Source: a virus. From it: a stretch of 29,717 nucleotides of DNA. Shown in pieces: positions 3,349-29,234 of the stretch. Below the pieces are notes generated by a model. The model was not told where the DNA came from, made no database searches, and saw only the letters and a list, made by a program, of their open reading frames with translations. Numbering within the stretch: the first letter of the stretch is position 1; every line of letters begins with the position of its first letter. A program made the translations under genes and the position numbers. Location of the stretch: positions 1-29,717 of the IMG/VR virus record IMGVR_UViG_3300027720_000023. One strand, given 5' to 3'.

Positions 3349-5271
3349 ATGACAATCAATAATAACAATATATTTGGAGCATTTACACTTGGAGAAGTTC
3401 GTAGTGGACGACTGACTGGTGATTGGTTGAATAAAGAATCCGTTGCGAATTATGGTTGGTTTGGTGGTGGAACTACTCCAGGACCAACACTAGTATCAAG
3501 AGTAGACCGTATAGATTTCTCTAATGATTCACCATCAGCATTAGTAAGAGGTTCATTAAGTCAAGCAAGAAGAGGTTTATCGGCAACAGGAAACTCCAAC
3601 TATGGTTGGTTTGGTGGTGGTTCAATTCCAACACCAGCAGTAGTATCAACAGTAGACCGTATAGATTTTTCGAATGATTCTTCAACAGCATCACCAAGAG
3701 GACCATTAAGTTCGTTAACACGTACTTTAGCAGCAACAGGAAATTCTAACTATGGTTGGTTTGGTGGTGGTACTACATTTCCTGGACCAAGTAAATCAAC
3801 AGTAGAACGTATAGATTTCTCTAATGATTCCGCAACAGCATCAGTAAGAGGTCCATTGAGTTCGACAAGATATAATTCAGCAGCAACAGGAAATTCTAAC
3901 TATGGTTGGTTTGGTGGTGGTTCTTTGCCTGGAGCAACATCAACAGTAGAACGTATAGATTTCTCTAATGATTCCTCAACAGCATCAGTAAGAGGTCTAT
4001 TAAGTTCGGCAAGACGTACTTTAGCAGCAACAGGAAATTCTAACTATGGTTGGTTTGGTGGTGGATATGGACCAACACTACCATATCAATCAACAGTAGA
4101 CCGCATAGATTTCTCGAATGATTCTTCGACGGCATCAGTAAGAGGTTCATTAAATGCAGGAAGAGGATATTTAGCAGCAACAGGAAACTCTAACTATGGT
4201 TGGTTTGGTGGTGGTACTACATTTCCTGGACCAATAGTAGGAACAGTAAACCGTATAGATTTCTCGAATGATTCTCCATCAGCATCACCAAGAGGTTCAT
4301 TAAGTGCATCAAGATATCAGTTAGCAGCAACCTCAGGAGTTCTCAATATTCGCAGACAAAAAGCAGGGAATTATGGTTGGTTTGGTGGTGGATATGCTCC
4401 AGCAACAACAAGGTCAACAGTAGACCGTATAGATTTCTCAAATGATTCTGCAACAGCATTAGTAAGAGGTCCATTAAGTTCTCCAGCAGGAAGACGATAT
4501 GGTTTTGCAGCAACAGGAAACTCCAATTATGGTTGGTTTGGTGGTGGAGATATTCCAGTAGTAGCAACAGTAGACCGTATAGATTTCTCTAATGATTCAC
4601 CATCAGCATTAGTAAGAGGTCCATTAAGTCAAGAAAGAAGAGGTTTATCGGCAACAGGAAACTCTAATTATGGTTGGTTTGGTGGTGGTCAGGCTGGTTC
4701 CCCAGTAGTAGCAACAGTAGACCGTATAGATTTTTCCAATGATTCTGCATTAGCATTACTGAGAGGTCCATTAAGTTCAGTAAGATATGCTTCAGCAGCA
4801 ACAGGAAATTCCAATTATGGTTGGTTTTTTAATGGATCAAATCCAGCATTTATTCCAAACCAACAATCAACAGTAGACCGTATAGATTTCTCTAATGATT
4901 CTTCATTAGCATTGCCAAGAGCTATACTAACATCTCCAACAGCAAAAGAAAAACATGCAGCAACAGGAAACTCTAACTTTGGTTGGTTTGGTGGTGGTAG
5001 TAGTCCAGCAACATCAAGAGTATTTCGTATAAATTTTTCTAATGATTCTGCATTAGCATTACTGAGAGGTTCATTAAATGCTCCATCAGGAAGAGCTGAA
5101 TTAGCAGCAACAGGAAACTCTAACTATGGTTGGTTTGGTGGTGGTGGGCCTGGACCAGTATCAACAGTAGACCGTATAGATTTCTCTAGTGATTCTGTAT
5201 CAGCATCACCAAGAGGTCTATTAAGTTTAGGAAGATCTGAATTAGAAGCAACATCAAATACTAACAAATAA
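3349..5271 (+). CDS. Kelch-like repeat tail-fibre/adhesin protein B
   Basis: 640 aa and complete. A short unique N-terminus (residues 1-35, MTINNNNIFGAFTLGEVRSG) contains FTLGEVRS, which may anchor the protein to the virion. Twelve NYGWFGGG...VDRIDFSND repeats follow, six before and six after a linker (about 4325-4370, IRRQKAGN), as in the paralogs at 2 and 7022. Blade 10 reads YGWFFNGS, losing the triple Gly; blade 11 has VFRINF in place of VDRIDF. Blade 7 (from 4372) is identical over about 60 bp to blade 2 of the paralog at 7022. Predicted to be two six-bladed propellers. It lies between the sulfotransferase and the glycosyltransferase genes. Confidence 0.8.
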   Translation: MTINNNNIFGAFTLGEVRSGRLTGDWLNKESVANYGWFGGGTTPGPTLVSRVDRIDFSNDSPSALVRGSLSQARRGLSATGNSNYGWFGGGSIPTPAVVSTVDRIDFSNDSSTASPRGPLSSLTRTLAATGNSNYGWFGGGTTFPGPSKSTVERIDFSNDSATASVRGPLSSTRYNSAATGNSNYGWFGGGSLPGATSTVERIDFSNDSSTASVRGLLSSARRTLAATGNSNYGWFGGGYGPTLPYQSTVDRIDFSNDSSTASVRGSLNAGRGYLAATGNSNYGWFGGGTTFPGPIVGTVNRIDFSNDSPSASPRGSLSASRYQLAATSGVLNIRRQKAGNYGWFGGGYAPATTRSTVDRIDFSNDSATALVRGPLSSPAGRRYGFAATGNSNYGWFGGGDIPVVATVDRIDFSNDSPSALVRGPLSQERRGLSATGNSNYGWFGGGQAGSPVVATVDRIDFSNDSALALLRGPLSSVRYASAATGNSNYGWFFNGSNPAFIPNQQSTVDRIDFSNDSSLALPRAILTSPTAKEKHAATGNSNFGWFGGGSSPATSRVFRINFSNDSALALLRGSLNAPSGRAELAATGNSNYGWFGGGGPGPVSTVDRIDFSSDSVSASPRGLLSLGRSELEATSNTNK

Positions 5272-7021: not shown

Positions 7022-9274
7022 ATGCCAGCAGGAGACGTATTTGGTCTTGATGGATTTTTTCTAAACGTATCAAATCCCATTACGGTTTCTGCTGTAGACA
7101 TTAATTCTACTGCTGCAGGTGCTGGTATTACTGTAACTGCTGGTTCTTTTAGTTCTGGAACTGTAACTCTCACTCTTTCAACTGCTGCTGGTCTCACAAC
7201 AACACCTTTTTATGTGGGTGCAAAGATTGCAGTTTCTGGTATTGGTTCTACAACAGGAATAGCATATACTGGATATAATGGAAATTTTGTAGTCACAGGA
7301 TTTGCAGGAACAACAACAGTGTCTTATGCAACTACTGGTTATGTTGGTAGTGTGGATGCTGGTATCACCACAACTGGTTTGGTAATGTTAGTGACTGATG
7401 GGAATGTCACGAATACCACTTGGAGTACCTCTCAAACTCACGGTTGGTTTGGTGGTGGTTTTTCGTTTCCAGGATCCATAACTTATTCAACAGTAGACCG
7501 TATAGATTTCTCTAATGATACTGGAACTGCAAATATTAGAGGTCCATTAAGTTTAGCAAGATATGGTTTAGCAGCAACAGGAAATTCTAACTATGGTTGG
7601 TTTGGTGGTGGATATGCTCCAGCAACAACAAGGTCAACAGTAGACCGTATAGATTTCTCAAATGATTCTGCATCAGTATCAGTAAGAGGTCCATTAGGTG
7701 TAACCAAAACAAAGGCAGCAACAACAGGAAACTCTAACTATGGTTGGTTTGGTGGTGGTGGTGCAATAACAGCTTTAGCAACAGTAGACCGTATAGATTT
7801 CTCGAATGATTCTGGAACAGCATCACCAAGAGGTCCATTAGTTTTAGAAATATATAGTTTAGCAGCAACAGGAAACTCTAACTATGGTTGGTTTGGTGGT
7901 GGACTTGTACAAGTACCAACAGTGAAATTATCAAGAGTAGAACGCATAGATTTCTCAAATGATTTTTCAGCATCATCAATAAGAGGTCCATTAAGTGCTT
8001 CAAAATATGTTTTAGCAGCAACAGGAAACTCCAACTATGGTTGGTTTGGTGGTGGAAGATCTGTTCCATCAGCAACCTACTTATCAACAGTAGACCGTAT
8101 AGATTTCTCTAATGATTCTGCAGCAGCATCAGTTAGAGGTCCATTAAGTTCTGAAAGACAAAGATTATCAGCAACAGGAAACTCTAACTATGGTTGGTTT
8201 GGTGGTGGATATGGATCATCACTACCATATCTATCAAGAGTAGACCGTATAGATTTCTCTAATGATTCTACATCAGTATCAGTGAGAGGTCCATTAAGTT
8301 CAGCAAGAGGATATAAAGCAGCAACATCAGGGCAGGCAAGGTCTTCAAGTATTCGTCTACAAAAAGCAGGGAATTATGGTTGGTTTGGTGGTGGAGAAAA
8401 TTCACCACTAACAGCAACAGTAGACCGTATAGATTTCTCAAATGATTCCACAACAGCATCACCAAGAGGTTCATTAACTTTAGCAAGAACAAGATTAGCA
8501 GCAACAGGAAACTCTAACTACGGTTGGTTTGGTGGTGGATATACAACACTTCCAACCACAAGAGTAGACCGTATCGATTTTTCAAATGATTCTCCTGCTG
8601 GAGCATCTATTAGAGGTGATTTTAATACAATTAAATCAAATCCATCAGCAACAGGAAACTCTAATTATGGTTGGTTCGGTGGTGGAAATAGGGGTACAGC
8701 ATCTACTACTGCACCATATTTGACAACAGTAGAACGTATTAACTTTACGAATGATTCAACAGCAGCATCACCAAGAGGTTTATTAATTACAGCAAGATAT
8801 GGTTTAGCAGCAACAGGAAACTCAAATTATGGTTGGTTTGGTGGTGGTGCAGATGCATCAGTTTTTTTGGCAACAGTAGAACGTATTGACTTTACGAATG
8901 ATTCTCCATCAGTATCTCCAAGAGGTTCATTAATTACGGCAAGAAATGCTTTGGCAGCAACAGGAAACTCAAATTATGGTTGGTGGGGTGGAGGTGCGAC
9001 ACCAACAATCGTGGCAACAGTAGAACGTATAGATTTCTCAAATGATTCTGCATCAGTATTGAGTAGAGGTGCATTACTAATAGCAAGAAGTAGATTGGCA
9101 GCAACAGGAAACTCTAACTATGGGTGGTTTGGTGGAGGAACATCACCAGCATCTTTTAATAGTAATGTTTATCGTATAGACTTCTCTAATGATTCAGTAA
9201 CAACCACAGAAAGAGGAAAATTATCTGGAAGTAGATATGGTCATGCAGCAACCTCCAACGCACCCATAGGATAA
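7022..9274 (+). CDS. Kelch-like repeat tail-fibre/adhesin protein C with N-terminal virion domain
   Basis: 750 aa. Unlike its paralogs it has a long N-terminal region (about 1-140, MPAGDVFGLDGFFLNVSNP) rich in Thr, Gly, Val and Ser (for example ITVTAGSFSSGTVTLTLS). This looks like a beta-sandwich of the kind that fixes phage fibres to the particle. WSTSQTHGWFGGG then opens twelve Kelch-like blades arranged 6+6 around a linker at about 8318-8370 (IRLQKAGN). Blades 9-11 use VERI(N/D)FTND variants and blade 11 has WWGGG. THGWFGGG also begins the visible part of protein A, so A probably carries a similar N-terminal domain upstream of the window. The ribosome site ggaga lies just before the ATG. 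Role inferred: receptor-binding or decoration fibre. Confidence 0.82.
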   Translation: MPAGDVFGLDGFFLNVSNPITVSAVDINSTAAGAGITVTAGSFSSGTVTLTLSTAAGLTTTPFYVGAKIAVSGIGSTTGIAYTGYNGNFVVTGFAGTTTVSYATTGYVGSVDAGITTTGLVMLVTDGNVTNTTWSTSQTHGWFGGGFSFPGSITYSTVDRIDFSNDTGTANIRGPLSLARYGLAATGNSNYGWFGGGYAPATTRSTVDRIDFSNDSASVSVRGPLGVTKTKAATTGNSNYGWFGGGGAITALATVDRIDFSNDSGTASPRGPLVLEIYSLAATGNSNYGWFGGGLVQVPTVKLSRVERIDFSNDFSASSIRGPLSASKYVLAATGNSNYGWFGGGRSVPSATYLSTVDRIDFSNDSAAASVRGPLSSERQRLSATGNSNYGWFGGGYGSSLPYLSRVDRIDFSNDSTSVSVRGPLSSARGYKAATSGQARSSSIRLQKAGNYGWFGGGENSPLTATVDRIDFSNDSTTASPRGSLTLARTRLAATGNSNYGWFGGGYTTLPTTRVDRIDFSNDSPAGASIRGDFNTIKSNPSATGNSNYGWFGGGNRGTASTTAPYLTTVERINFTNDSTAASPRGLLITARYGLAATGNSNYGWFGGGADASVFLATVERIDFTNDSPSVSPRGSLITARNALAATGNSNYGWWGGGATPTIVATVERIDFSNDSASVLSRGALLIARSRLAATGNSNYGWFGGGTSPASFNSNVYRIDFSNDSVTTTERGKLSGSRYGHAATSNAPIG

Positions 9275-26201: not shown

Positions 26202-26250
26202 TAAAGGGTGGTTGAGAGACCACCAGCACCTTGAAAATTTAACCTTTTAT

Positions 26251-26322
26251 GGGTCTGTAACTCAATGGTAGAGTAACGGGCTTTTAACCTGGAAGTTGTG
26301 AGTTCGAGCCTCACCGGACCCA
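26251..26322 (+). tRNA. tRNA-Lys (TTT)
   Basis: Acceptor GGGTCTG/CGGACCC, loop CTTTTAA, T-arm GTGAG-TTCGAGC-CTCAC, A73. First tRNA of the main array. The anticodon stem has one mismatch at its outer end. Confidence 0.92.
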
Positions 26323-26353
26323 TAGACCTAGAAAGTCATTAAACTTATCTAAT

Positions 26354-26435
26354 GGGAGAGTGCCCGAGTGGTTAATGGGAACGGTCTGTAAAATCGTCGG
26401 CTCTGCCTTCACAAGTTCAAATCTTGTCTCTCCCA
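26354..26435 (+). tRNA. tRNA-Tyr (GTA)
   Basis: Acceptor GGGAGAG/CTCTCCC, anticodon arm ACGGT-CTGTAAA-ATCGT, long variable arm (class II, as usual for bacterial Tyr), T-arm ACAAG-TTCAAAT-CTTGT. Confidence 0.93.
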
Positions 26436-26439
26436 CCTT

Positions 26440-26511
26440 GACTCTATAATGAAGTGGTTATCATACTTCTCTGTCTAAGAAGAATCACGAGTTCGAATCT
26501 CGTTAGAGTCG
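26440..26511 (+). tRNA. tRNA-Asp (GTC)
   Basis: Acceptor GACTCTA/TAGAGTC, anticodon arm CTTCT-CTGTCTA-AGAAG, T-arm ACGAG-TTCGAAT-CTCGT, G73 as expected for Asp. Confidence 0.93.
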
Positions 26512-26515
26512 TCGT

Positions 26516-26587
26516 GTTCCTGTCGTCTAATGGTTAGGACGATGCCCTTTCAAGGCATAAACGAGGGTTCAAATCCCTTCAGGAATA
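26516..26587 (+). tRNA. tRNA-Glu (TTC)
   Basis: Acceptor GTTCCTG/CAGGAAT (first pair G-U), anticodon arm ATGCC-CTTTCAA-GGCAT, T-arm GAGGG-TTCAAAT-CCCTT. Confidence 0.92.
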
Positions 26588-26590
26588 CTT

Positions 26591-26664
26591 GGGAACATAG
26601 CTCCAATTGGTAGAGCACTTGTTTGAAGAACAAGGTGTTATCGGTTCAAATCCGATTGTTCCCA
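26591..26664 (+). tRNA. tRNA-Phe (GAA)
   Basis: Acceptor GGGAACA/TGTTCCC, anticodon arm CTTGT-TTGAAGA-ACAAG, T-arm ATCGG-TTCAAAT-CCGAT, A73. Confidence 0.93.
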
Positions 26665-26668
26665 CCTT

Positions 26669-26741
26669 GGAAACATAGCTTAGTTGGTAAAGCATTCGAC
26701 TGATAATCGAAAGACCACTGGTTCAAGTCCAGTTGTTTCCA
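26669..26741 (+). tRNA. tRNA-Ile (GAT)
   Basis: Acceptor GGAAACA/TGTTTCC, anticodon arm TTCGA-CTGATAA-TCGAA, T-arm ACTGG-TTCAAGT-CCAGT, A73. Confidence 0.93.
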
Positions 26742-26744
26742 CTT

Positions 26745-26760
26745 GTTGCCTTCGGGCAAC
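26745..26760 (+). other. UUCG-tetraloop hairpin between tRNAs
   Basis: GTTGCC-TTCG-GGCAAC, a very stable hairpin with no T-tract after it. Probably a processing or stability element of the polycistronic tRNA transcript. Confidence 0.6.
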
Positions 26761-26793
26761 ATAAAACCCTTATGGGTTGCTTCAAGACAACAT

Positions 26794-26881
26794 AGAAAGG
26801 TGACCGAGAGGCTTAAGGTAGAAGTTTGCTAAACTTCCGAGGGGAAAAACCCCTCCGAGGGTTCGAATCCCTCCCTTTCTG
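26794..26881 (+). tRNA. tRNA-Ser (GCT)
   Basis: Acceptor AGAAAGG/CCTTTCT, anticodon arm GAAGT-TTGCTAA-ACTTC, long variable arm with GAGGGG/CCCCTC, G73. Class II as expected. Confidence 0.93.
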
Positions 26882-26883
26882 CT

Positions 26884-26955
26884 GGCAGTATAGCTGAGTG
26901 GTAAAGCACATCATTCATACCGATGCGACCGTGGGTTCAAATCCCACTACTGCCT
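26884..26955 (+). tRNA. tRNA-Met (CAT), elongator-like
   Basis: Acceptor GGCAGTA/TACTGCC fully paired, anticodon loop TTCATAC, anticodon stem with an A-C mismatch next to the loop, T-arm GTGGG-TTCAAAT-CCCAC. Discriminator T is unusual for Met. Ile2 is an alternative. Confidence 0.85.
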
Positions 26956-26956
26956 T

Positions 26957-27028
26957 GTGTCGTTAGTCTAGTGGTTAAGACATCTGTTTGTGGAACAGAG
27001 GAGATGAGTTCAATTCTCATACGACACC
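26957..27028 (+). tRNA. tRNA-His (GTG)
   Basis: Acceptor GTGTCGT/ACGACAC, anticodon arm TCTGT-TTGTGGA-ACAGA, T-arm ATGAG-TTCAATT-CTCAT, C73 as in bacterial His. The -1 base encoded here is T, not the usual G. Confidence 0.92.
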
Positions 27029-27030
27029 CC

Positions 27031-27102
27031 GCCCTTATAGCTCAGTGGTAGAGCAACTCACTAGTAATGAGTAGGTCGCTAGTTCAAATCTAGTTGAGGG
27101 CT
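27031..27102 (+). tRNA. tRNA-Thr (AGT)
   Basis: Acceptor GCCCTTA/TGAGGGC, anticodon arm ACTCA-CTAGTAA-TGAGT, T-arm CTAGT-TTCAAAT-CTAGT-like with G-T changes, T73. Anticodon AGT (A34) is rare in bacteria, where Thr is read by TGT or GGT. Confidence 0.85.
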
Positions 27103-27127
27103 TTGTCGGAAGTAATTAATCCGACAA
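27103..27127 (+). other. Perfect 8-bp hairpin after tRNA-Thr
   Basis: TTGTCGGA/TCCGACAA with a 9-nt loop. It overlaps the next structured element by two bases, so the two could be alternative folds. Confidence 0.6.
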
Positions 27128-27175
27128 CGTGAAATAGTTGGTAGCTCCAACACTATGTTGAATAGGTTTCACGTT
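27126..27175 (+). ncRNA. Candidate three-way-junction RNA in tRNA array
   Basis: Nine-base outer stem AACGTGAAA/TTTCACGTT encloses two hairpins, GTTGG-TAGCT-CCAAC and CTAT-GTTGA-ATAG. About 50 nt, not a tRNA. T4 carries stable RNAs C and D of unknown role in its tRNA cluster; this could be an analogue. A mere spacer is the alternative. Confidence 0.55.
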
Positions 27176-27178
27176 AAT

Positions 27179-27252
27179 GTCTAGGTGGCAGAGTGGTCGA
27201 ATGCGGAAGTCTGCAAAACTTCTTATCGTGGGTTCAAATCCCACCCTAGACT
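27179..27252 (+). tRNA. tRNA-Cys (GCA)
   Basis: Acceptor GTCTAGG/CCTAGAC, anticodon arm GAAGT-CTGCAAA-ACTTC, T-arm GTGGG-TTCAAAT-CCCAC, T73, the Cys identity base. Confidence 0.93.
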
Positions 27253-27278
27253 CTTGGTTCTTTATGAATCATATTTAA

Positions 27279-27352
27279 TGAGAAATCGTCTAATGGTAGG
27301 ACACCTCCCTTTGAAGGAGTCTATCTAGGTTCGAGTCCTAGTTTCTCAGCCA
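27279..27352 (+). tRNA. tRNA-Gln (TTG), CCA encoded
   Basis: Acceptor TGAGAAA/TTTCTCA with weak first pair T-A and G73, both typical for Gln. Loop CTTTGAA, T-arm CTAGG-TTCGAGT-CCTAG. The final CCA (27350-27352) is encoded and directly abuts tRNA-Leu. Confidence 0.92.
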
Positions 27353-27426
27353 GCCCGATTGATGGAATTGGTATACATACTTGTCTTAGAAACAAGGTTT
27401 TACAGGTTCGAGTCCTGTATCGGGCA
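27353..27426 (+). tRNA. tRNA-Leu (TAG) with short variable loop
   Basis: Acceptor GCCCGAT/ATCGGGC, Leu-like D-arm (GGAATTGGTATAC), anticodon arm CTTGT-CTTAGAA-ACAAG, variable loop only GTTTT, T-arm ACAGG-TTCGAGT-CCTGT, A73. The long variable arm expected for Leu is missing. There is no spacer from tRNA-Gln. Confidence 0.9.
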
Positions 27427-27430
27427 CCTT

Positions 27431-27502
27431 GTTGGGTTGGTGCAATTGGTAGCATCTTGGTCTCCAAAATCAAAGATTAGAGTTCAAGTCTCTAACCCTT
27501 CG
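27431..27502 (+). tRNA. tRNA-Trp (CCA)
   Basis: Anticodon arm TTGGT-CTCCAAA-ATCAA, T-arm TAGAG-TTCAAGT-CTCTA, G73. The acceptor GTTGGGT/ACCCTTC has two adjacent T-T mismatches (pairs 2 and 3), which may lower charging or mark decay. Confidence 0.82.
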
Positions 27503-27506
27503 CCTT

Positions 27507-27580
27507 GTCCTTTTAGCTCAGTGGATTAGAGCAGTAGGCTACGAACCTATGTGTCGGGAGTTCGAATCTCTCAAAGGACG
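27507..27580 (+). tRNA. tRNA-Arg (ACG)
   Basis: Acceptor GTCCTTT/AAAGGAC, anticodon arm GTAGG-CTACGAA-CCTAT, T-arm GGGAG-TTCGAAT-CTCTC, G73. A34 is normally turned to inosine by host TadA. Confidence 0.93.
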
Positions 27581-27582
27581 CT

Positions 27583-27602
27583 TGACTTTCCTTAGAAAGT
27601 CA
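27583..27602 (+). other. Perfect hairpin between tRNAs
   Basis: TGACTTTC-CTTA-GAAAGTCA, no T run after it; likely a processing element. Confidence 0.5.
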
Positions 27603-27619
27603 TATATACTATTGATAGA

Positions 27620-27665
27620 GGTTAAGTCCCTGTTATATCCTTATGAGGTATATCACACTTAATCC
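27620..27665 (+). other. Nested stem-loop before tRNA-Met
   Basis: GGTTAAGT can pair with ACTTAATCC (one bulged A), enclosing ATATCC with GGTATAT. Similar in size to the element at 27126; less perfect. Confidence 0.35.
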
Positions 27666-27670
27666 ATCAT

Positions 27671-27745
27671 CGCAGGGTAGTCAAGTGGTAAGACGCTAGG
27701 CTCATAACCTAGAGATCGTGGGTTCAATTCCCACCCCTGCTCCCA
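27671..27745 (+). tRNA. tRNA-Met, initiator-like (CAT), CCA encoded
   Basis: CGCAGGG/CCCTGCT leaves pair 1-72 open (C-T), resembling the C1-A72 mismatch of bacterial initiator tRNA. Anticodon arm CTAGG-CTCATAA-CCTAG lacks the three G-C pairs of initiators. T-arm GTGGG-TTCAATT-CCCAC. CCA at 27743-27745. Confidence 0.87.
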
Positions 27746-27774
27746 ATAACACACAAACATACAGGAGTAAAAGA

Positions 27775-27975
27775 ATGACACCTTACGAACTACGATTTGA
27801 GATTTTTAAGCAAGCATATTGTATGCTACAAGATAATTATTGCAACCGTCTTGAAGTAGAACGCAGTAAAAATTCAGATCTAGCACTACCAGCAGATTTT
27901 GATGGTACTTATCCAAGTTTAGATCAGGTTTTGGTACAAGCAGAAATCATTAATGACTTTGTAAGTTCTAAATGA
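27775..27975 (+). CDS. Conserved small phage protein in tRNA array
   Basis: 66 aa from ATG 27775: MTPYELRFEIFKQAYCMLQDNY.... The start is set by aggag at 27763; an upstream in-frame ATG lies inside the tRNA and is rejected. Similar MTPYELRFEIFKQA starts are familiar from T4-like cyanophages (from memory). Likely helical; ends DQVLVQAEIINDFVSSK. Function unknown. Its place between tRNAs suggests expression on the same long transcript. Confidence 0.75.
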   Translation: MTPYELRFEIFKQAYCMLQDNYCNRLEVERSKNSDLALPADFDGTYPSLDQVLVQAEIINDFVSSK

Positions 27976-27981
27976 TAAAGT

Positions 27982-27997
27982 AGGGTGGCAACACCCT
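27982..27997 (+). other. GNRA-tetraloop hairpin
   Basis: AGGGTG-GCAA-CACCCT directly after the small gene at 27775. Stable, lacks a T run, so a processing or 3'-end-protecting element is more likely than a terminator. Confidence 0.55.
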
Positions 27998-28006
27998 TAT
28001 GTGAAT

Positions 28007-28091
28007 GGAAGGTTGACCGAGTGGTTTATGGTGATAGTCTTGAAAACTATTGAGGGTAAAACCTCCCAGAGTTCGAATCTCTGACCTTCCT
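28007..28091 (+). tRNA. tRNA-Ser (TGA)
   Basis: Acceptor GGAAGGT/ACCTTCC, anticodon arm ATAGT-CTTGAAA-ACTAT, long variable arm (GAGGG/CCTCC-type), T-arm CAGAG-TTCGAAT-CTCTG. Discriminator T differs from the usual G for Ser. Confidence 0.92.
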
Positions 28092-28093
28092 TA

Positions 28094-28111
28094 GAAGGAT
28101 GCGAAACCTTC
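28094..28111 (+). other. Small hairpin after tRNA-Ser
   Basis: GAAGG/CCTTC with an 8-nt loop. Its arms resemble the acceptor of the preceding tRNA-Ser, so competition in folding is possible. Confidence 0.35.
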
Positions 28112-28125
28112 CACTCTCACAAAAT

Positions 28126-28200
28126 GCGAAATTAATTCAGCGGTAGAATGTCTGCCTTCCAAGCAGAACGTCAGGAGTTCGAATCTCCTATTTCGCTCCA
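28126..28200 (+). tRNA. tRNA-Gly (TCC), CCA encoded
   Basis: Acceptor GCGAAAT/ATTTCGC, anticodon arm TCTGC-CTTCCAA-GCAGA, T-arm AGGAG-TTCGAAT-CTCCT, T73, CCA 28198-28200 directly followed by tRNA-Val. Confidence 0.93.
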
Positions 28201-28273
28201 GGGAAATTAGCTCAGTGGTAGCAGCGTCTGCTTTACACGCAGAAAGTCCACAGTTCGAATCTGTGATTTCCCA
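28201..28273 (+). tRNA. tRNA-Val (TAC)
   Basis: Acceptor GGGAAAT/ATTTCCC, anticodon arm TCTGC-TTTACAC-GCAGA, T-arm CACAG-TTCGAAT-CTGTG, A73. No spacer from tRNA-Gly. Confidence 0.93.
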
Positions 28274-28310
28274 TTAGCAATCATATGATTGTTATAATTA
28301 CCAGGAGTAA

Positions 28311-28372
28311 GTCAGCGGTAGACGGCACCGTTTGGGGCGGTGAAGACGTTGGTTCGATCCCAACCTTCTGGA
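28311..28372 (+). tRNA. tRNA-Pro (TGG)
   Basis: Acceptor CCAGGAG/CTTCTGG, anticodon arm CACCG-TTTGGGG-CGGTG, T-arm GTTGG-TTCGATC-CCAAC, A73. The D-arm is compact. A TATAAT at 28293-28298 just upstream might be a weak internal promoter, but no -35 is seen. Confidence 0.88.
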
Positions 28373-28378
28373 TTGGAG

Positions 28379-28386
28379 AATAAATA
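28379..28386 (+). promoter_or_regulatory. Late-promoter-like box (AATAAATA)
   Basis: Lies 27 bp before the ATG at 28413; the leader ctacattatt matches those at 1896 and 9285, supporting a shared late leader. Confidence 0.55.
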
Positions 28387-28412
28387 TCTCCAAAATCTAC
28401 ATTATTCTTTTT

Positions 28413-28568
28413 ATGTCTCTTATTTCACAACAAGACCGAGAACTTGCTATTGAAGCATTGGATTTCTATCTCTTCAGTAAAGGTAACGACTTCACTGAAG
28501 CAAAGAGAGCAGAAGTAAATGCTCTTCTTAATTGGATTAAAATTGAGAAATCTAAGCATGAACATTAA
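28413..28568 (+). CDS. Small hypothetical protein
   Basis: 51 aa, MSLISQQDRELAIEALDFYLF..., probably two helices; ends IKIEKSKHEH. Preceded by a late box and by the same leader as the oxygenase-like genes. Overlaps the next gene by 11 bp. No family recognised. Confidence 0.65.
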   Translation: MSLISQQDRELAIEALDFYLFSKGNDFTEAKRAEVNALLNWIKIEKSKHEH

Positions 28569-28725
28569 ACTCTGGTATTGCGATTCAATGAAACAATGGC
28601 GTTGGACATTAACAGATTGTTCTCGTCCAATCATCAAACAAGAATCAGGACAACAACCAGATTTGAGAGATGCTATGAATGATGTAGCAACAACAGTTGA
28701 GTTTATGTTAGACCATAAACTTTAA
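28558..28725 (+). CDS. Conserved small phage protein
   Basis: 55 aa from ATG 28558: MNIKLWYCDSMKQWRWTLTD..., then QQPDLRDAMNDVATTVEFML. Closely related short proteins occur in T4-like cyanophages as I recall; the function is unknown. The start is supported by overlap coupling with the upstream gene; codons further upstream belong to that gene's other frame. Confidence 0.72.
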   Translation: MNIKLWYCDSMKQWRWTLTDCSRPIIKQESGQQPDLRDAMNDVATTVEFMLDHKL

Positions 28726-28735
28726 ACTTTTATAT

Positions 28736-28807
28736 TCCCCTGTAGTTCAGTGGTAGAACTCAAAACTGTTAATTTTGCTGTCTCTGGTTCGAATCCAGAC
28801 GGGGGAG
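28736..28807 (+). tRNA. tRNA-Asn (GTT)
   Basis: Acceptor TCCCCTG/CGGGGGA, anticodon arm CAAAA-CTGTTAA-TTTTG, T-arm TCTGG-TTCGAAT-CCAGA, G73 as expected. Confidence 0.93.
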
Positions 28808-28827
28808 TTGAAGTCTTAAGACTTCAA
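28808..28827 (+). other. 20-bp perfect palindrome
   Basis: TTGAAGTCTT/AAGACTTCAA between tRNA-Asn and tRNA-Met. RNA hairpin or protein-binding site; no T run. Confidence 0.5.
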
Positions 28828-28831
28828 ATAA

Positions 28832-28905
28832 CGCAGACGAGTGTAAAGGTAGCACAATAGGCTCATAACCTATAGGACGGAGTTCAATTCTCTGGTCTGC
28901 CACCA
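28832..28905 (+). tRNA. tRNA-Met, initiator-like (CAT), CCA encoded
   Basis: CGCAGAC/GTCTGCC leaves pair 1-72 open (C-C). Anticodon arm ATAGG-CTCATAA-CCTAT, T-arm CGGAG-TTCAATT-CTCTG, A73 and CCA at 28903-28905. Fourth CAT tRNA of the window; one of the four may be Ile2. Confidence 0.87.
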
Positions 28906-28910
28906 AATAA

Positions 28911-28981
28911 GGGGGATTAGTTAAACGGTATAACGGGTGCTTTGCAAGCACTTATTAACAGTTCGATTCTGTTATTCTCCA
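28911..28981 (+). tRNA. tRNA-Ala (TGC)
   Basis: Acceptor GGGGGAT/ATTCTCC carries the G3-U70 pair that defines Ala identity, with A73. Anticodon arm GGTGC-TTTGCAA-GCACT, T-arm AACAG-TTCGATT-CTGTT. It abuts the tmRNA. Confidence 0.93.
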
Positions 28982-28983
28982 TT

Positions 28984-29205
28984 GTCCAAGAGGGTGAGAA
29001 GTCTAATGTTTCGGACGGGGTTTCGATTACCCCCATCTCCATTACTCGGGGATGCCAGGTTTCGACGGAGCATAAAGGTCTTATCTGTTGACGGGACAAG
29101 TCCATAAACGCAAACAACATTGTTGCTTTCTCTCGTCAAACAGTTTCTGTTTGAACTAAACGAGTGAGGGGGTTATAAGTTTCCTTCTTACCCAAAACTT
29201 ATATT
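28984..29205 (+). ncRNA. ssrA: Circularly permuted (two-piece) tmRNA
   Basis: The gene is in inverted order. First comes the acceptor piece (about 28984-29041): T-arm GGGGT-TTCGATT-ACCCC (29017-29033), then acceptor strand CATCTCC and A73 (29041). After a 6-base spacer (TTACTC) comes the coding piece from 29048: GGGGATG, which pairs with CATCTCC, then AGGTTTCGACGG, the conserved tmRNA D-region. The tag frame starts at GCA 29110 and codes ANNIVAFSRQTVSV, stop TGA 29152-29154. A 9-bp stem (TATAAGTTT/AAACTTATA, 29174-29203) with a GGGG/CCC contact suggests a pseudoknot. The tag resembles cyanobacterial tags (ANNIV.FSRQ) but ends VSV rather than PVAA. The permuted form is known in alpha-proteobacteria, some beta-proteobacteria and marine cyanobacteria. 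Confidence 0.92.
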
Positions 29206-29207
29206 GG

Positions 29208-29234
29208 GGGACACTTGAGAAAGTGTCCCTTTTT
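29208..29234 (+). terminator. Intrinsic terminator of tmRNA/tRNA array
   Basis: GGGACACTT/AAGTGTCCC around GAG(A), then five T. The same sequence forms the GACAC...AAAGTGTCC dyad that lies 40.5 bp before the next -10. Confidence 0.85.

Follow-up and report, generated by a model that had tools for sequence, protein, structure and literature searches.

A cyanobacterial-type permuted tmRNA gene at the end of a viral tRNA array, with a tag that lacks the terminal Ala-Ala

The carriage of tmRNA genes by phages is usually explained either by extra ribosome rescue or by the recycling of amino acids through degradation of the tagged products. Permuted (two-piece) tmRNA genes in phages are already known. 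The two-piece tmRNA of the marine methylophage Melnitz was published in 2022, and 53 two-piece phage tmRNAs were counted, of which 50 are marine or aquatic (PMC9004378). Like the locus described here, those of Melnitz and the pelagiphages are permuted tmRNA genes of marine T4-like phages, but the Melnitz gene is of the alphaproteobacterial type and is accompanied by a glutamine riboswitch (PMC9004378). The mycobacteriophages of the Bxz1 group and phage DS6A also encode a tmRNA or a tRNA-like domain; they belong to other lineages, and the DS6A RNA has no tag frame.

The closest described RNA is the cyanobacterial permuted tmRNA (RF01851; merged model RF04321), in which the acceptor half comes first and is followed by a short spacer and the coding half, with a G3-U70 pair, a long P2 helix, a tag of the form AN[NK]IV.F.R... 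and a hairpin at the tag end. Variation at the tag C-terminus has been studied with engineered tags. In Synechocystis, LVA is the strongest, AAV is weaker and ASV is the weakest (PMC3446811), and in Salmonella, tags ending in AAV and ASV are turned over more slowly and through ClpXP only (PMC11003136). The -AAV and -ASV endings are weaker ClpXP degrons and not null ones (PMC3446811, PMC11003136).

The window analysed here is the whole stretch of 29,717 nucleotides of the IMG/VR virus record IMGVR_UViG_3300027720_000023, a linear virus fragment of 29.7 kb. By its sequence, the source contig is a T4-like cyanophage; its CobS-like protein shares about 70% identity with the CobS of Synechococcus T4-like phages, and further proteins match phage protein families. 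Three long tandem-repeat proteins (GNSNYGWFGGG...VDRIDFSNDS...), possibly variable surface or fibre proteins, are encoded at positions 14-1885, 3349-5271 and 7022-9274, interleaved with a 2OG-Fe(II) oxygenase and a glycosyltransferase.

Gene order and structure of the tmRNA locus

A permuted tmRNA gene of the cyanobacterial type lies at window positions 28982-29205, an assignment that we regard as virtually certain. It stands at the end of an array of about 23 tRNAs, which begins at 26250. The features, all on the + strand, are as follows.

26250-28981, +, tRNA array ending in the tmRNA: 22 tRNAs (ARAGORN) and one found by Rfam only
28911-28981, +, tRNA-Ala (TGC), abutting the 5' side of the tmRNA (ARAGORN and sequence)
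28982-29041, +, acceptor piece, the tRNA-like 3' half (sequence, Rfam)
28992-29013, +, P2 helix, 5' side; its partner is 29066-29086 of the coding piece
29017-29033, +, T arm of 5 bp with loop TTCGATT (sequence, Rfam-alignment mapping, covariation)
29034-29040, +, acceptor 3' strand CATCTCC; U70 of the G3-U70 pair is 29038
29042-29047, +, six-base spacer TTACTC, expected to be removed (sequence)
29048-29054, +, acceptor 5' strand GGGGATG (sequence)
29048-29205, +, coding piece, made up of the acceptor 5' strand and the mRNA-like domain; 3' end approximate (sequence, Rfam)
29066-29086, +, P2 helix, 3' side (Rfam-alignment mapping, covariation)
29110-29154, +, tag reading frame ANNIVAFSRQTVSV with stop TGA; the resume codon GCA is at 29110
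29136-29154, +, 8-bp hairpin TCAAACAG/CTGTTTGA, containing the last tag codons and the stop codon
29208-29234, +, intrinsic-terminator-like hairpin GGGACACTT-GAGA-AAGTGTCCC, followed by TTTTT (sequence, fold)

The 5' end of the acceptor piece is placed at 28982 by inference, the Rfam structure beginning at 28992; cleavage at the 3' end of tRNA-Ala would also create this end. The discriminator base is A29041, and CCA is not encoded. The segment 29200-29240, which spans the terminator-like hairpin, folds with -18.7 kcal/mol; the hairpin is not among the results of a consensus terminator scan. The tRNA found by Rfam only (28832-28902; 52.5 bits, anticodon CAT) lies between tRNA-Asn and tRNA-Ala and was missed by ARAGORN.

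The earlier note on this DNA had read the order of the halves as the arrangement of marine cyanobacterial ssrA, and had named a covariance search with the two-piece model as the check and a better one-piece score as the contrary outcome. The acceptor half does lie upstream of the coding half, base for base, and ARAGORN calls a permuted tmRNA with the tag ANNIVAFSRQTVSV at this locus. The score is 111.7 bits with RF01851 (cyano_tmRNA; E = 1e-29, cut-off 70, above gathering) and 81 bits with RF04321 (tmRNA_permuted), also above gathering. With the one-piece model RF00023 the score is 27.5 bits, short of the cut-off of 47, and a one-piece tmRNA is ruled out on this ground. The cyanobacterial type is, therefore, upheld, although the window scores well below the best-scoring host genes (307-329 bits) with the cyanobacterial model.

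The pairing agrees with this assignment. When the window is mapped through the Rfam alignment, all 29 pairs of the acceptor stem, T arm and P2 are standard (17/17 in P2). The seven pairs of the acceptor stem include a single G-U, as the earlier note had seen, and this is G3-U70, the alanine identity pair, which is present in 34 of 34 phages. Among these 34 phage tmRNAs, 93.4% of the cells are paired, versus 81.7% after shuffling and 43-55% in slid controls. Changes on both sides occur in 21 of the 29 pairs, and none of 500 shuffles is as high. Pairing is complete (100%) in the acceptor stem and T arm, with both-side changes in all five T-arm pairs, and the two segments of P2 are paired in 80.6% and 94.4% of cells. 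A chance hairpin or fragments of tRNA-Ala are ruled out by the E-value and the covariation. The six-base spacer, also described in the earlier note, is of ordinary length, since spacers of 5-8 nt occur in 97 of 100 phage genes and are found in hosts as well; the commonest host length is 12 nt, with 5-39 among the commonest lengths.

The earlier note had pointed to no well-described phage example of a permuted tmRNA. The idea that this might be the "first phage permuted tmRNA" is ruled out by Melnitz (PMC9004378), while the permuted cyanobacterial-type phage tmRNA itself stands. The window gene differs from that of Melnitz in its cyanobacterial type, its position at the end of a tRNA array and its non-AA tag. 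In IMG/VR, at least 119 stretches match a general permuted-tmRNA pattern and 101 match the cyanobacterial-type pattern. In GenBank, cyanobacterial-type permuted tmRNAs are present in the T4-like cyanophage genomes S-CAM1, S-CAM3, S-SSM7/S-SSM6a, Sf-FS3, S-CRM01, S-CBWM1 and AG-345-P14, where the genes are unannotated or overlap "hypothetical proteins". In S-SSM7 (L299), S-CAM3 (L303) and S-SSM6a (L304), frames over the tmRNA carry the label 'hypothetical protein' (e.g., SSSM7_025, T4-LIKE GC 1277), and the tmRNA therefore passes as a protein family. One viral contig (L005) contains, about 0.7 kb upstream of its intact tmRNA, a second, broken acceptor half joined to the 3' portion of a sequence that resembles tRNA-Ala(TGC) (L005:5606-5722), apparently a recombinant of tmRNA and tRNA-Ala.

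Tag C-termini in hosts and viruses

The distinguishing feature of the gene, absent from the earlier note, is a tag without a C-terminal Ala-Ala. The canonical SsrA proteolysis tag ends in Ala-Ala, whereas ANNIVAFSRQTVSV ends in ...TVSV, with SV where the hosts have AA. The ending ...VSV resembles ASV, and the SV/AV end matches the weakened forms among the engineered SsrA variants LVA, AAV and ASV; the window tag differs from these in being natural and in having a cyanobacterial tag background.

An example of a host tag is ANNIVRFSRQAAPVAA. ARAGORN supplied the host tags for comparison, from Prochlorococcus loci and a sample of the same family; three calls without AN[NK]IV were left out as spurious, and each of the 94 genuine calls (91 distinct sequences) has the terminus VAA. 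A class-wide DNA pattern search matched 8 of 242 cyanobacterial genomes and added few host loci. The viral tags of the cyanobacterial type are different. Among 44 distinct tags, 26 end in Val (TALV, SLV, TLV, VAV, QTV, ATV, VSV), six in TA, one in CA and eleven in AA. All 44 have Ala or Val as their final residue; Leu takes this place once, in the isolate S-CRM01. By deduplicated records (n = 98, leaving out the double entries of the window, which is also L001, and of L025 and L085), the numbers are 63 V, 27 AA and 8 TA or CA. Only the start of the tag, and not its end, was specified in the search pattern; the counts of endings are, therefore, unbiased, while the conservation of the start is biased. 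There is no general relaxation of the terminus in phages, because non-cyanobacterial permuted viral tags keep AA in 41 of 45 cases.

Most of the cyanophage isolates have altered ends, namely ...ELVTA (S-SSM7/6a), ...ELATA (Sf-FS3), ...QLATA (AG-345-P14), ...SLVAAL (S-CRM01) and ...AVSCA (S-CBWM1), and, unlike the window, none ends in Val. The lineage of S-CAM1, S-CAM3 and their kin keeps ...STVAA, so that the altered end is not essential to a cyanophage tmRNA. In seven viral sequences (L004, L010, L015, L026, L062, L088 and L299), the tags are lengthened at the start (AKTDTPAANNIV..., ANTSDSAANNIV...) to 21-31 residues, versus 16 in hosts. No description of an altered cyanophage tag was found in the literature searched, which consisted of open-licence papers.

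Origin of the altered terminus

When the tree is built with the tag columns left out, about eight changes are needed to explain the Val state, and at least four of them are forced by well-supported (starred) branches. All four Val codons are in use among the viral tags, and the 3' end of the tag takes several different hairpin layouts across lineages. These data bear on a first alternative, in which the RNA is functional and its Val ending is either neutral or a product of RNA pairing at the 3' end of the tag, proteolysis being the same as with the host tag. In the lineage of the window, the hairpin stem takes in the Val codon, and a change from Val to Ala weakens the stem by about 4.3 kcal/mol (calculated for the near-identical copy L111). 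RNA pairing could thus have favoured GTT there, and an RNA-level cause is conceivable for the window's own gene; AT-rich phages may, in addition, favour GTN over GCN. RNA pairing is not sufficient as a class-wide cause, however, because in 15 of the 26 distinct Val tags the Val codon has an unpaired middle base, and reversion to Ala costs little or nothing there. Moreover, Prochlorococcus hosts with the same CAA ACA codons retain GCT GCT, and free drift predicts final Thr, Ser, Pro, Asp and Gly, in contrast to the Ala, Val and single Leu observed. We consider this alternative rather unlikely.

The retention of a small, hydrophobic last residue (Val or Ala) suggests that something still reads the tag end, and this would also be expected if the altered C-terminus redirected the tagged proteins to another protease or binding partner instead of acting as a weaker degron. 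Such redirection appears improbable, since there is no candidate partner, the phage records searched contain no ClpP-family gene, and a terminal Val is a known weak form for ClpXP (PMC3446811, PMC11003136). Still less probable is a decoy RNA that sequesters SmpB or AlaRS of the host and prevents host trans-translation, in the manner of the RNA of phage DS6A, which is tRNA-like only; inhibition of tmRNA in E. coli has been reported for a phage RNA of this kind (PMC4131195, PMC11915505), but the window RNA retains the resume codon, an open tag frame and a stop codon, and the frame is open across its relatives. A functionless relic derived from the host, for which partial copies such as that in L005 might speak, is hardly credible in view of the strong covariation, the fully paired acceptor and T stems and the open tags in about 100 contigs.

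Proposed function and significance

The best explanation of the whole is a working rescue RNA that uses host SmpB and AlaRS and adds a tag less prone to proteolysis, and we hold it to be reasonably probable. From the gene order, structure, tag and recurrence, we infer the following course of processing, charging, use and weaker degradation. The permuted tmRNA would be made as the last RNA of the tRNA array. Host RNase P would cut before G29048, and a nuclease acting on tRNA 3' ends would cut after A29041. After the addition of CCA, the two pieces would be held together by the acceptor stem and P2, and the RNA would be charged by host AlaRS through G3-U70. Host SmpB would deliver it to stalled ribosomes, which would resume at GCA 29110 and add ANNIVAFSRQTVSV.

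SmpB (PF01668) was not found in the window record, a fragment, or in 14 related phage records, six of these 15 being GenBank phage records searched whole; it is present in a host genome (G001). Phage-supplied SmpB or ClpP is likewise rejected as a candidate for the records searched, and host SmpB and host proteases must, therefore, act. Because the tag ends in SV and not in AA, slower degradation of the tagged products by ClpXP is expected, and the release of ribosomes would entail less proteolysis than with the host RNA. That the phage RNA works as a rescue RNA is quite likely, and its putative role in ribosome rescue during the destruction of host mRNA, which the earlier note had proposed, is plausible. 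By analogy with the engineered endings, the chances that the phage tag is a weaker degron appear evenly balanced; if it is, tagged proteins would be longer-lived during rescue by the phage RNA.

For the family as a whole, we propose tentatively, at slightly less than even confidence, that the Ala-Ala end of a host-type tag has repeatedly been replaced in cyanophages, by Val, Thr-Ala, Cys-Ala or Ala-Ala-Leu, in a way that lets phage-encoded trans-translation free ribosomes and spares the tagged proteins from degradation by ClpXP. When the start of a tag is retained and its degron is lost, this argues for rescue without degradation. This is simple to test, because the altered-tag isolates S-SSM7, Sf-FS3, S-CRM01 and S-CBWM1 grow on named hosts. 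The gain to the phage may be either that phage proteins translated from broken mRNAs are spared or that the load on ClpXP is lighter. If the proposal is true, the altered tags would provide a naturally graded series for cyanobacterial protein turnover, and ribosome rescue would be uncoupled from proteolysis during infection.
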